Assembly (NCBI GenBank): GCA_900065925.1
Contig: LN890280.1
Location: forward strand, 674,451-738,450
Source: Nitrosotalea devaniterrae
GTDB lineage: Archaea; Thermoproteota; Nitrososphaeria; Nitrososphaerales; Nitrosopumilaceae
Direction of reading: 5' to 3'
DNA: 64,000 bases
Shown: positions 13,191 through 58,524 of the stretch, in pieces
Layout: the number at the start of each line of letters is the position of its first letter
How positions within the stretch are numbered: the stretch's first letter is position 1
The notes under the pieces: model-generated
Database searches by the model: none
What the model was told of the DNA's origin: nothing
The model's input: only the letters and a program-made list of their open reading frames with translations
Program-made: the position numbers and the translations under genes

Positions 13191-14336
13191 CTAATAACTC
13201 TGTCCGGCTTCAGTTCTAAGCTTCTTTGTAATCATCATCTCGATGTTGTCAAAGAGCTCAATCATCTTGTGCTTGTTTGCTTGGAGGTATTCTACACCCT
13301 TGTCAGTAAGTCTGACCTTGTACAATCTAATGTCTCGATGTTCTTCAAAAAAGTATTCAATCATCTGTCCGCCTTTCTTTGAAGGCTCGATGAACACATC
13401 TAACTTTGAAATTATTTCTGTAACGTCGCCTTTCTCAATTGCAGTCTTTGCACCTTGCACTGCCTCGTTTATCTCCTTGAGATTTTGTATGACAAGTGGC
13501 TGTGGTTTTTTTGCAGTTCCAAAAAAGCTCTTCTTTTCAACACCGATTTTCTCAGCAAGTTCTGGAACTATCTCATACTCTTCGACTTTTTGTAATCCTA
13601 AACTTTTCTCTGTCTTGATGAGCAGACCCTTTTCAACTAGTTTTCTTGCAGCATCTTCAACTTCGAGTTTTCCTACCATTGTAGTCCAGACAATCTGTCC
13701 TACTTTGTGGTAACCTTGTCTTACTGATTCTAAAACTACAACTTCAATAATTCTTCGGTATCCTTCATCTGTTCTAATGTTTTCAAAGTCCTTGTCCTTT
13801 ACTGCCTTTTTGGCATTTTTGACATCAACTTCAATTGAGCGTTTGAGTGCTTCAATTGATTCTGGTATGTGATTCAAAAGCGCATGATAACATGCCTTGT
13901 TGTACCATGACATTCCATCTGTTGAGTTGGAATCAATTGCTTTTTCTACACTGTCTAAAGCTTTATCGTAATTTTTCTGTCTATAGTAAATCAAGCCTTT
14001 CAAGTTCCATGCTTCAGCATTTGTAACATCAATTTCATGGACTTTATTGTAAGACTCCATTGCACTTGACAGGTCATTCATGTGAAAACGGGTGTATCCA
14101 AGCTTAAGCAATGACGGTATATGTGTAGGGTCAACTCGTAATGCGTCCTCAAAGGCCCTGGCTGCCTCATCCATCCTTTCGTCTGCCATGAGCGAGACTC
14201 CCTTCTTGAAGTGCTTGTTTCTGTTATAGTTTGGATCTGTTAGTTTATTGGATGATGATTCCTCTGGCACCTTTGCCTCTGACTTTCTTATCTCAGTGAC
14301 TTCCTTTTTATCGCCAAATAGTTTCTTCACGGTCAT
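13191..14336 (-). CDS. TPR protein with C-terminal winged-helix region
   Basis: A 381-residue protein. A charged N-terminal tail precedes about four tetratricopeptide repeats (residues 40-180), with signatures such as ADERMDEAARAFEDALRVDPTH and AEAWNLKGLIYYRQKNYDKALDSVEKAI. Next come a KDKDFENIRTDEGYR segment and two winged-helix-like parts (residues 200-380) ending near LTDKGVEYLQANKH. It probably scaffolds protein contacts and may bind DNA. It shares the KDKDF tail motif with the TPR protein at 57997-58524. It converges on the rhodanese gene with a two-base gap. Confidence 0.8.
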   Translation of the reverse strand: MTVKKLFGDKKEVTEIRKSEAKVPEESSSNKLTDPNYNRNKHFKKGVSLMADERMDEAARAFEDALRVDPTHIPSLLKLGYTRFHMNDLSSAMESYNKVHEIDVTNAEAWNLKGLIYYRQKNYDKALDSVEKAIDSNSTDGMSWYNKACYHALLNHIPESIEALKRSIEVDVKNAKKAVKDKDFENIRTDEGYRRIIEVVVLESVRQGYHKVGQIVWTTMVGKLEVEDAARKLVEKGLLIKTEKSLGLQKVEEYEIVPELAEKIGVEKKSFFGTAKKPQPLVIQNLKEINEAVQGAKTAIEKGDVTEIISKLDVFIEPSKKGGQMIEYFFEEHRDIRLYKVRLTDKGVEYLQANKHKMIELFDNIEMMITKKLRTEAGQSY

Positions 14337-14429
14337 CAAAATGTGGATTAGCCGTAGATAAATAGATTAGTTTGAAAGACAAACAGGTAGAAAACCGATT
14401 TCCAAGTATCTAAAAATTCACAAATGGGC

Positions 14430-14436
14430 TTTATAT
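14430..14436 (+). promoter_or_regulatory. TATA box of collagen-like gene
   Basis: TTTATAT lies 43 bases before the ATG at 14479. This spacing implies a leader of about 15-20 bases. Confidence 0.5.
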
Positions 14437-14478
14437 CATATTGAAAATACAAAAATACTTAGGAATTATACGTAGAAC

Positions 14479-16110
14479 ATGTCATCAAAAGATAACACTA
14501 TAGAGGTATCTGGCGAGTCACCCTTCAAACTGTCATCGGGTGTCTTTGAGGTACAGATTGCAATATGTGATGCCCCGCCATCACTTGATGATATCAAGCG
14601 AAGAAGTTTTCACTTGCTATGGAAAGAAAACTTTCATCTGCGGGTTAAAGATAAACAATTCTCCCAAGTATTAGGATCTGCAAAAAACCCATTGCCTGAT
14701 TCTGTATTTCAAAGAGGAACTGTCTGGGTTGTTGTAATTGATCAATTCTCTTCTATTCATTCAAGTTTTCAAGTTGATGTACCGCGAACTGCAGAGTATG
14801 TGGAGCATCGACAAGAACCCGAGCCTGTAACACATTCTACAAAATCTGATGCGGATAGTTCTAGATCAAAACCTACTGTTGAACATTATTCTGGTGAAAG
14901 AGGTTCTCGTGGCCCATCTGGTCCAATGGGTCCTGCAGGCCCTATGGGTCAAGCAGGTCCAATGGGCCCAGCTGGAGTACATGGCCCACCTGGTCCTATG
15001 GGTGTACAAGGAGACAAGGGTCCCCCAGGTCCAATTGGTGACAAGGGTGACAAAGGTCCTTCAGGTCCTCCAGGTGACAAAGGTGACCGAGGAGACAAGG
15101 GTCCAATTGGTGACAAGGGAATCACTGGTGACAAAGGTCCACTGGGTCCTTCAGGTCCACCCGGAGACAAAGGTCCACATGGTCCAACCGGTGACAAAGG
15201 TGACCGAGGAGACAAGGGTCCAATTGGTGACAAGGGAATCACTGGTGACAAAGGTCCACAAGGTGACAAGGGTCCTCGCGGTGATGAAGGAGAAAAAGGC
15301 GAAAAGGGCGATAAAGGTGACAAGGGTGATAAAGGCGATAAAGGATTAACTGGAGAAATTGGACCGCTTGGAGAAAAAGGTCCGACAGGTCCTCCAGGTC
15401 CACAAGGTGATAAAGGAATCATTGGTCCTCCGGGTGAACAAGGTCCAAAGGGTCCTCTTGGTACGCCGGGTGACAAAGGGTTGCCAGGTCCACAGGGTCC
15501 ACAAGGTGACAAGGGATTAACAGGTCCACAAGGTCCACTTGGAGAAAAAGGTCCACAAGGTCCCCAAGGTCCTGCCGGTGAAAAAGGTCTTACCGGAATT
15601 CCAGGTCCACAAGGTGACAAAGGTCCAAGAGGATTGCCAGGTCCAAGTGGTGAACAAGGTCCGCGTGGAACTCCTGGTCCATCCGGTCCTCCGGGTCCAC
15701 AAGGAATTCAAGGTCCACAAGGTGAAAAAGGTACAACCGGTCCACAAGGTGTACCCGGTGACAAGGGTCCTCCGGGAATCCAAGGTCTACCAGGTCCAGT
15801 TGGTCCATTAGGTCCACAAGGTCCACCAGGTGACAAAGGTCCACAAGGTGTACAGGGTCCACAAGGAGACAAGGGATTAACAGGTCAGCAAGGTCCACTT
15901 GGAGATAAAGGACAACAAGGTCCACAAGGACAACAAGGTATTCCTGGTGAATCAGGTCCACGAGGTCCTCCAGGTCCACCAGGTGACAAGGGTCCTACTG
16001 GATTTTCTGAACAAGAACGTGCATTGATAACTCAACTGCTTGAGATTTTATCTTCGAAAAATGTGTTGACAACTGAGCAACAAATAAAATTGATGAGTTT
16101 TCTTTACTGA
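14479..16110 (+). CDS. Collagen-like protein with 123 Gly-X-Y triplets
   Basis: A 543-residue protein in three parts. Residues 1-138 form a globular N-terminal domain ([10 protein letters not shown] and similar strands) ending in an acidic/Ser-rich linker. Residues 139-507 are 123 consecutive Gly-X-Y triplets without a break, rich in GDK, GPQ and GPP. Residues 508-543 are a predicted helix ([19 protein letters not shown]) that could trimerise the chains. There is no signal peptide or membrane segment, so export by the general pathway is not indicated. Charged GDK/GEK triplets may stabilise the helix without hydroxyproline. The downstream 94-residue gene is probably co-transcribed. Confidence 0.95.
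15073..15142 (+). repeat. 70-bp perfect direct repeat, copy 1 (collagen tract)
   Basis: Identical over 70 bases to 15190-15259, an offset of 117 bases (39 residues). It codes for part of the Gly-X-Y region around [19 protein letters not shown]. Perfect identity, including third positions, points to a recent tandem duplication. Confidence 0.9.
15190..15259 (+). repeat. 70-bp perfect direct repeat, copy 2 (collagen tract)
   Basis: Second copy of the 70-base unit at 15073-15142. The flanks diverge immediately, so the duplicated block is sharply bounded. Confidence 0.9.
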
Positions 16111-16148
16111 AAATATCTTCAAATAACTCAAACTAGTTCTCAATTGAC

Positions 16149-16433
16149 ATGAGTACATCAAAAGAAAAAATAGAATTCAAAATGCTAGATCATCAAAGAG
16201 TTGGAGAAGAACATGTCACTTTCAAGCTTGAAGATGGTACGATGGTCAAAGTAAAAGTTGATCTGGACAGAGTTGGAATTGCTACAAATTACAAAAATCC
16301 TGATGGCACACCACACTATGCAGTTAATGCATCGCTTAAGCTGTCGATAATTCCTAGTGAAAGAAAATTTTTCGTAGAACCTGATGCAGTCAAAGCAAAA
16401 TCGCCGTCTCCACCAGGTCAAATGTTTAGCTAA
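16149..16433 (+). CDS. Companion of the collagen-like gene, unknown function
   Basis: A 94-residue soluble protein, 38 bases after the collagen-like gene on the same strand. It has a beta-rich core (HVTFKLEDGTMVKVKVDLDRVGIA and YAVNASLKLSIIPSERKFF) and a Ser/Pro tail (KSPSPPGQMFS). There are no cysteines, signal peptide or membrane segment. I do not recognise a family. Its position makes it a candidate partner, chaperone or cap for the collagen-like protein, but this is inference. Confidence 0.7.
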   Translation: MSTSKEKIEFKMLDHQRVGEEHVTFKLEDGTMVKVKVDLDRVGIATNYKNPDGTPHYAVNASLKLSIIPSERKFFVEPDAVKAKSPSPPGQMFS

Positions 16434-16479: not shown

Positions 16480-16698
16480 TTATCTTCGTCTTTTTGGAGC
16501 TGCTCTTTTTGCTTTTCTTGTAGCTGATCTTCGCTTTGGTGCGGATCTTCTCTTAGGAGCAGATCGCTTTGGTGCAGATCGTCTCTTTGGAGCACTACGT
16601 TTTGGAGCTGATCTTCTCTTAGGAGCAGATCGCTTTGCAGCTGATCTTCTCTTTGGAGCTGATCTTTTTTTAGCAGCCCGTGTTGTTCGTTTTGCCAT
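16480..16698 (-). CDS. Lys/Arg/Ala/Pro-repeat protein, histone H1 tail-like
   Basis: A 72-residue protein made almost only of Lys, Arg, Ala, Ser and Pro: 14 Lys, 21 Arg and no acidic residue. Residues 11-54 are four tandem 11-residue units of the form KRSAPKRRSAP. Composition and PK/SAPK spacing resemble the C-terminal tail of eukaryotic histone H1 and bacterial H1-like proteins, so nucleic-acid binding or compaction is likely. I chose the ATG at 16698 (MAKRTT). A longer in-frame start would add 26 residues of quite different composition. A TATA-like CTATAG lies about 30 bases upstream. Confidence 0.8.
   Translation of the reverse strand: MAKRTTRAAKKRSAPKRRSAAKRSAPKRRSAPKRSAPKRRSAPKRSAPKRRSAPKRRSATRKAKRAAPKRRR
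16537..16668 (-). repeat. Four tandem 33-bp units in the basic-protein gene
   Basis: Residues 11-54 of the basic protein are four 11-residue units, encoded by 33-bp repeats that differ at a few synonymous positions. The repeat number may vary between strains. Confidence 0.75.
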
Positions 16699-16812: not shown

Positions 16813-16986
16813 TTAGTAAACTGATTCTGCAGATGGTCTTCTTCCTTGCAACCATGATGTTTGTCCGCACTCTGTGCATTTGTATTGTCTTCTTCTTTTG
16901 TATGTCGCCATGTTTGGCATGAAAATAATTTCTTGTTTTGTTTTTGAAAAACATTTCTTGCACCACCTGTATTCAGCTTCTTCCAC
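16813..16986 (-). CDS. Zinc-ribbon microprotein
   Basis: A 57-residue protein with two CxxC knuckles: WCKKC at residues 8-12 and CTEC at 37-40. A Lys/Arg-rich turn (YKRRRQYK) separates them, as in small zinc ribbons. The GTG start gives (M)EEAEYRWCKKC; a shorter ATG start (MPNMATYK) would lose the first knuckle. It begins 37 bases after the DRG GTPase gene on the same strand and may be its operon partner. In Eukarya, DRG GTPases bind zinc-finger DFRP proteins, which makes this placement suggestive but unproven. Confidence 0.65.
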   Translation of the reverse strand: MEEAEYRWCKKCFSKTKQEIIFMPNMATYKRRRQYKCTECGQTSWLQGRRPSAESVY

Positions 16987-57996: not shown

Positions 57997-58524
57997 CTAT
58001 ACAGTAAGGGACTTGAATCTTGGGTCACTAGATATAAAATCAAAATCCTTGTCCATTGCAGCCTTTTTTGCATATTGCTCATCAAGTGTAATTGCTTTTT
58101 CAAGTAGTATCAAGGACTGGCCTGTATCTTTTTGCAAGGACTTGGTGCAAGCCTTGTGGTATAGTACACTTGCATTCTCTGGTGCGTTTGATAATATTCT
58201 ATCATAGCATGTAATTGCCTGGTCATATCTTCCAAGGTAATGTAATGCAAGGCCCTTGTTGAGAAGACATGTGACATGCTCTGGGGTGTTTTTTAATATT
58301 TTATCATAGCATGTAATTGCCTGGTCGTATTTTCCAAGTTTTCCTAATACGTTGCCCATGTTTGCTAGTGCATTGACATGACCTGGCTCTACCTCCAAGA
58401 CTTTGTCAAAATAAAACATGGCATCACGTGGGTTGCCCCTTTTTGCGTGGGATAATCCAATATTGTACAGGTATTCGATATTTGCATTCTCGTCATCTGA
58501 TGAAAAATTGACAAATCCGCTCAA
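57997..58524 (-). CDS. TPR-repeat protein
   Basis: A 175-residue protein of three or four tetratricopeptide repeats (residues 12-150), such as GNPRDAMFYFDKVLEVEPGHVNALANMGNVL and two near-identical units containing YDQAITCYDKIL and YDQAITCYDRIL. It ends with AMDKDFDFISSDPRF, matching the motif in the protein at 13191-14336. It acts in protein-protein contacts. TTG start. Confidence 0.85.
   Translation of the reverse strand: MSGFVNFSSDDENANIEYLYNIGLSHAKRGNPRDAMFYFDKVLEVEPGHVNALANMGNVLGKLGKYDQAITCYDKILKNTPEHVTCLLNKGLALHYLGRYDQAITCYDRILSNAPENASVLYHKACTKSLQKDTGQSLILLEKAITLDEQYAKKAAMDKDFDFISSDPRFKSLTV
58192..58236 (-). repeat. 45-bp internal repeat, copy 1, in TPR gene
   Basis: Matches 58294-58338 in 42 of 45 bases at an offset of 102 bases, one 34-residue TPR unit. 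The conservation at DNA level suggests recent duplication or gene conversion. Confidence 0.8.
58294..58338 (-). repeat. 45-bp internal repeat, copy 2, in TPR gene
   Basis: Second copy of the TPR unit repeat; the three differences are all transitions. Confidence 0.8.

Follow-up and report, generated by a model that had tools for sequence, protein, structure and literature searches.

Collagen counts as a protein of the extracellular space, and most of its prokaryotic representatives are accessory proteins of surfaces, spores or viruses. What, then, is a long collagen-like protein without a visible export signal doing in an archaeon, and on which side of the membrane does it work? The gene that raises this question lies in a 64,000-nucleotide stretch (the window) of the closed 1.805-Mb archaeal chromosome of Nitrosotalea devaniterrae. 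An open reading frame with an ATG start at 14479–16110 on the forward strand encodes 543 amino acids, and no upstream in-frame ATG, GTG or TTG start would lengthen it. The protein consists of an N-terminal domain, a linker, 124 Gly-X-Y triplets and a 33-residue tail, among which Pfam recognises the collagen repeat alone (PF01391; 204.5 bits against a cut-off of 27.2). This score, together with selection on the glycine frame described below, bears out the proposal of a first-pass annotation that the archaeon encodes a collagen-like protein. On the forward strand 5′ of the gene, comparison with the upstream sequences of relatives reveals a TATA-box-like element, TTTATATC (14430–14437), which is kept within the genus and may act as the promoter, followed by a conserved AAATACAAAAATAC stretch at approximately 14445–14458.

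The Gly-X-Y tract and its C-terminal end

The tract (residues 139–510; 14893–16008, forward strand) is uninterrupted, as established by triplet count, Pfam match and glycine codon comparison. The long perfect repeat described in the first-pass annotation therefore stands, but its count of 123 triplets gives way to 124. Proline occupies the X position in 57 triplets and the Y position in 19, the net charge is zero, and the 26 GDK and 15 GPQ triplets match the abundance of these two types recorded earlier, with a further 11 GPP. A set of 69 distinct full-length relatives, selected for runs of 40 triplets or longer, comprises 7,597 triplets, among which there is neither an interruption (no second run) nor a cysteine. 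Tracts in this set have 68–163 triplets; members of one genus tend to be alike in length, with peaks near 101 and 120–124, and one further relative (locus L222 in genome G005) reaches 185. In pairs of equal-length relatives, glycine codons carry 23–62 synonymous and 0 nonsynonymous differences per pair, with 9–48 replacements at the X and Y positions of the same pairs. Because the glycine codons differ between relatives by synonymous changes alone, the tract is not a product of chance; this test rules out a chance or low-complexity artefact, and glycine at every third position is maintained by selection.

Salt-bridge pairs of the KGD/KGE type are not enriched over triplet shuffles, and a conserved charged block, considered as a general feature, was set aside since it is present in two tested loci of the source genus and is not general. 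An internal 117-bp repeat at 15049–15259 (93% match, 1.8 copies) is a sign of earlier change in tract length. In the small 0.8-Mb genomes of one genus (g22), the N-terminal domain is kept and the tract is short and broken (locus L086). In genome G041 (locus L220), the tract is shifted between frames, reflecting either decay or an assembly error.

In 64 of 68 relatives a GPP-GPP pair falls among the last six triplets, nearly always at a distance of exactly five triplets from the end. By comparison, 0.7% of internal adjacent triplet pairs are GPP-GPP. In N. devaniterrae the terminal pair forms part of a GPR-GPP-GPP cap (15955–15981, forward strand), a proposed triple-helix nucleation site whose position beside the tail is fixed among relatives. 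The tail itself (residues 511–543; 16009–16107, forward strand) is a conserved 33-residue segment that, judged from sequence, looks like a helical hairpin and is proposed to serve in trimerisation or docking. A profile of the tail retrieves, in essence, this one gene, with a single match per genome and in family members only, apart from one borderline 14-residue match outside; a SHOCT-like assignment was dropped, having no Pfam match in its support. Triple helices of animal collagens are nucleated by GPP-rich C-terminal ends, and the cap and conserved tail are therefore best read as a trimerisation and nucleation end. The uninterrupted tract and the cap are together suggestive of a trimeric triple helix, and the collagen-like rod protein is real and under selection, its rod being probably nucleated from the C terminus. 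At the textbook triple-helix rise of 0.286 nm per residue, the tract would measure approximately 106 nm if triple-helical throughout, and computed rod lengths are 58–140 nm in the distinct full-length set, one relative reaching 159 nm.

The same segment could instead be a flexible polyproline-like linker that forms no trimer, with the N-terminal domain and tail working as a monomer. The genome has no match to the oxygenase/hydroxylase family PF13640, the one hydroxylase family searched, and hydroxyproline is therefore not expected by that route; moreover, the reduced genomes that keep the N-terminal domain beside a short, broken tract suggest that the head may function without a long rod. However, hydroxyproline is dispensable for folding in bacterial and viral collagens, and prokaryotic collagens do not require prolyl hydroxylase. 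A flexible linker would require neither unbroken triplets nor glycine conservation nor a fixed cap, all three of which the relatives display, and we regard this explanation as improbable.

A gene of one archaeal family and its neighbours

Profile searches and predicted structure place a β-sandwich domain at residues 1–105 (14479–14793, forward strand). An AlphaFold2 model built with 47 homologues folds residues 8–100, approximately, into a compact β-sandwich (block pLDDT 93–98), in agreement with the globular N-terminal domain noted earlier, and leaves the following linker disordered; this low-confidence segment (residues 106–138; 14794–14892, forward strand; pLDDT about 50–60) is probably disordered in the protein as well. 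Invariant residues of the domain include G12, P15, F16, E24, W48, L54, F61, G66, P71, P73 and D88. Neither PDB nor viral structures match the predicted fold at E ≤ 0.001, the best PDB structures being generic β-sandwich proteins (TM ≤ 0.48), and a profile search of PDB sequences returned nothing better than E = 1. Judged from the model, the domain appears to be an undescribed one with generic Ig-like topology. Its best named relatives belong to Candidatus Nitrosotalea, a genus of acid-tolerant soil ammonia oxidisers.

Of 250 family genomes searched, 205 contain the domain, as a rule in one copy per genome; they represent all 22 genera, and among near-complete genomes the figure is 122 of 131. 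A 47-sequence profile was positive in 124 of 132 family genomes, including all 24 single-contig ones, and 168 genomes belonging to the order's other families gave no match; among 300 genomes across the phylum, all 43 matches fell inside the family. The eight negatives among the 132 are draft assemblies of 30–220 contigs, one of which (G206) has the tail on a cut-off contig; genomes G127 and G095 have neither an N-terminal domain nor a collagen match and may be true losses. The family is Nitrosopumilaceae in the GTDB sense, and within it the collagen gene is near-universal and single-copy. Collagen-like proteins had been called rare in archaea, which describes their sporadic occurrence elsewhere in the phylum but fails for Nitrosopumilaceae.

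Most of 40 loci examined share the gene order SiR–rhodanese–TPR–collagen–(companion)–DRG GTPase–HAD–ArgS, in which the TPR-repeat gene, identified by Pfam and locus comparison, is the divergent neighbour of the collagen gene (13191–14339, reverse strand). Distances between N-terminal domains correlate with those of four neighbour genes (r 0.79–0.86, Mantel p 0.001), and this correlation and the conserved gene order argue for vertical descent. In five collagen-free outgroup loci from two other families, the TPR gene directly adjoins the companion at 69–387 nt; most probably, therefore, the collagen gene originated between these two genes, or inserted there, on the family stem, although it may instead have been lost in the outgroups. 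Two small reverse-strand open reading frames lie close by: one at 16480–16695 encodes an extremely basic, histone-H1-tail-like protein of 71 residues with KRSAPKRR-type repeats (33-bp repeat) and occurs near the collagen locus in several genera, and one at 16813–16986 is zinc-ribbon-like (CxxC...CxxC) and in many genera is kept at this locus. Farther along the window, a TPR-like gene (57997–58524, reverse strand) contains a 102-bp tandem duplication at 58173–58362 (79% match).

Signal-less collagen-like fibres are found in phages and giant viruses, and the protein might accordingly be a domesticated viral component, for example a fibre of the tail or capsid. The N-terminal domain, however, has no homologues in viral contigs, phage or plasmid records or PHROGs and no viral counterpart in fold at the threshold given above, and the gene descends vertically at a fixed locus. 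A viral or plasmid origin was rejected on the missing sequence matches, and among the readings weighed here the domesticated virus part is the least probable. An anti-phage role was likewise rejected, as neither the collagen protein nor the companion has a PADLOC match.

The companion is a 94-residue open reading frame at 16149–16433 on the forward strand. It is real and conserved in relatives, as a neighbour gene found order-wide with the strongly conserved core KVKVDLDRVG..TNYKNPDGTPHYA; it has no Pfam, NCBIfam or PDB match, and its predicted model (pTM 0.50) yields no fold match. The first-pass annotation had placed both genes in one system, and they do share a strand and often stand 1–40 nt apart in several genera. 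Yet a joint search of other genomes, which that annotation had suggested as a check, revealed poor co-occurrence: whereas 124 of the 132 family genomes have the collagen gene, 44 have the companion, whose family also occurs in 29 genomes of other families, all without the N-terminal domain. Most genomes of genera such as g15, single-contig ones included, lack the companion and keep the collagen gene, and genome G153 has a companion remnant with stop codons beside it. This distribution and the collagen-free outgroup loci rule out the companion as a dedicated partner; on present genomic evidence it is an older neighbour, perhaps cotranscribed with the collagen gene where present, and a two-gene system is very improbable.

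Cellular location

None of the 69 relatives contains a signal-like or transmembrane hydrophobic stretch (maximum 19-residue hydropathy 1.60, median 1.11), consistent with the earlier statement that the protein lacks a signal peptide, and none carries an LPxTG anchor. The other proteins with collagen repeats that were examined in this family and phylum begin with a hydrophobic signal-like or membrane segment. A separate protein of 404 residues, encoded on the reverse strand approximately 335 nt before the window start (locus L219; G000:C1:672902-674116), has an N-terminal hydrophobic segment and eight Gly-X-Y triplets and resembles, by eye, an HtrA-type serine protease with a PDZ domain, the triplets forming a short collagen-like linker outside the membrane segment.

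As a second line of evidence on location we compared acidic-residue content between the acidophilic source genus (g1) and genus g15. The acidic fraction of exported cupredoxin domains is 0.078 in g1 versus 0.148 in g15 and that of the exported AmoB core 0.081 versus 0.111, and these two exported families have 27–47% fewer acidic residues in the acidophilic genus than in neutrophilic relatives. Six presumed cytosolic neighbour proteins are 5–13% lower in g1. The collagen N-terminal domain (0.113 versus 0.110) and tract (0.105 versus 0.100) are like cytosolic proteins in this respect; the 33-residue tail (0.108 versus 0.158) is unlike them, being depleted as an exposed segment might be. Composition thus favours a cytoplasmic location of the protein, with the N-terminal domain mainly informative because the triple helix would constrain charges in the tract. 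The two genera provide one genus-level contrast, such that sequence-level p-values are pseudo-replicated and the test is support, not proof, of cytoplasmic location. On this indirect test, the protein is probably intracellular, one of the two roles first suggested for it (the other being non-classical export). Depletion of acidic residues in the exported domains of an acidophilic genus may also be usable as a general localisation test.

Could the protein nevertheless be a surface or extracellular fibre, exported independently of a signal and acting in envelope stabilisation or adhesion? Most characterised prokaryotic collagen-like proteins are found on surfaces or spores, and the signal-like or membrane segments of other collagen-bearing proteins in this and other archaeal families, as well as the acid-poor tail in the acidophile, are in keeping with such a fibre. 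The closest NCBIfam models are those of Scl adhesins, although the protein falls below the cut-offs of NF038330, NF038329 and NF046116: the model for the Scl/SclB LPXTG-anchored adhesin scores 224.5 bits against a cut-off of 325, and the best of seven relatives reaches 289.1. Full-text literature searches found no description of this protein and one possibly relevant mention: an 'LPXTG-anchored collagen-like adhesin', reported as raised at low salinity and detected in the proteome of Ca. Nitrosotenuis chungbukensis, where it is listed as a surface protein (PMC13037477, 2026). The adhesin may be a mislabelled member of the present family or another, signal-bearing protein; mislabelling is possible because the NCBIfam model of the same name is the best match here, below cut-off and without an anchor. 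Such a label, if acquired by similarity transfer, would mislead for proteins of this kind. Set against a surface fibre are the 69 relatives devoid of signal, membrane anchor or LPxTG motif and an N-terminal domain and tract without the acidic depletion of two exported families in the same genus, and on balance we consider it unlikely.

A candidate intracellular rod and its known counterparts

The reading that we prefer, and to which we would give close to an even chance, is an intracellular trimeric collagen rod that acts as a spacer, tether or scaffold. Three chains would come together through the short helical C-terminal tail, the adjoining GPP-GPP cap would nucleate a hydroxyproline-free triple helix, and the helix would zip from there towards the N terminus. 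The product would be a stiff rod of the length calculated above with three β-sandwich heads on flexible linkers at its far end; having no export signal, it would remain in the cytoplasm and might hold two different partners at a set distance, the heads binding one and the tail the other. We infer the trimer, its nucleation, the length of the rod and its role as spacer or scaffold from the features of the protein. A fuller proposal, that this cytoplasmic triple-helical rod is a length-setting spacer or skeleton element and a core component of the archaeal family in ordinary growing cells, is more tentative and falls somewhat short of even.

Nearly every member of a family to which very abundant ammonia oxidisers of sea and soil belong has one collagen-like gene at a fixed locus. 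The gene persists where genomes are streamlined, and its triplet frame, cap and tail are strongly constrained. If the protein is intracellular, archaeal cells would contain an architectural element that was not expected, with a length rule that can be tested; if exported, it would imply an unknown export route. Both outcomes would be informative.

Among known systems, the Bacillus spore-surface glycoprotein BclA offers a precedent in that its collagen-like filament is made intracellularly without a classical signal peptide. The archaea considered here have no spores, however, the N-terminal domain is different, and the Pfam scan gave no TNF-like C-terminal domain. Secreted archaeal collagen-like proteins of a Nitrososphaeraceae-type genus (g29) and of two other families (f18 and f40) share the Gly-X-Y tract, but those examined are sporadically distributed, are flanked by unrelated domains and contain hydrophobic segments of signal-like or membrane type. 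A signal-less collagen-like protein was also seen in another family of the phylum (f20, locus L151), with an N-terminal zinc-ribbon-like segment followed directly by approximately 90 triplets, and genome G222 has, besides the family gene, a second open frame with collagen repeats, 2,518 codons in length (L213; G222:C1:1249500-1259500). The streptococcal Scl1 and Scl2 and Legionella Lcl adhesins resemble the present protein in their hydroxyproline-free Gly-X-Y tracts rich in charged triplets; by contrast, it lacks a signal peptide and LPxTG motif, has other end domains and is encoded by a core gene rather than as an accessory adhesin. With PF01391 proteins at large it shares a long tract scoring above cut-off, charged and proline-rich triplets and a GPP-rich C-terminal end, and it differs from them in longest perfect runs that exceed many prokaryotic cases, in an N-terminal domain and tail of its own and in near-universal presence throughout one archaeal family.
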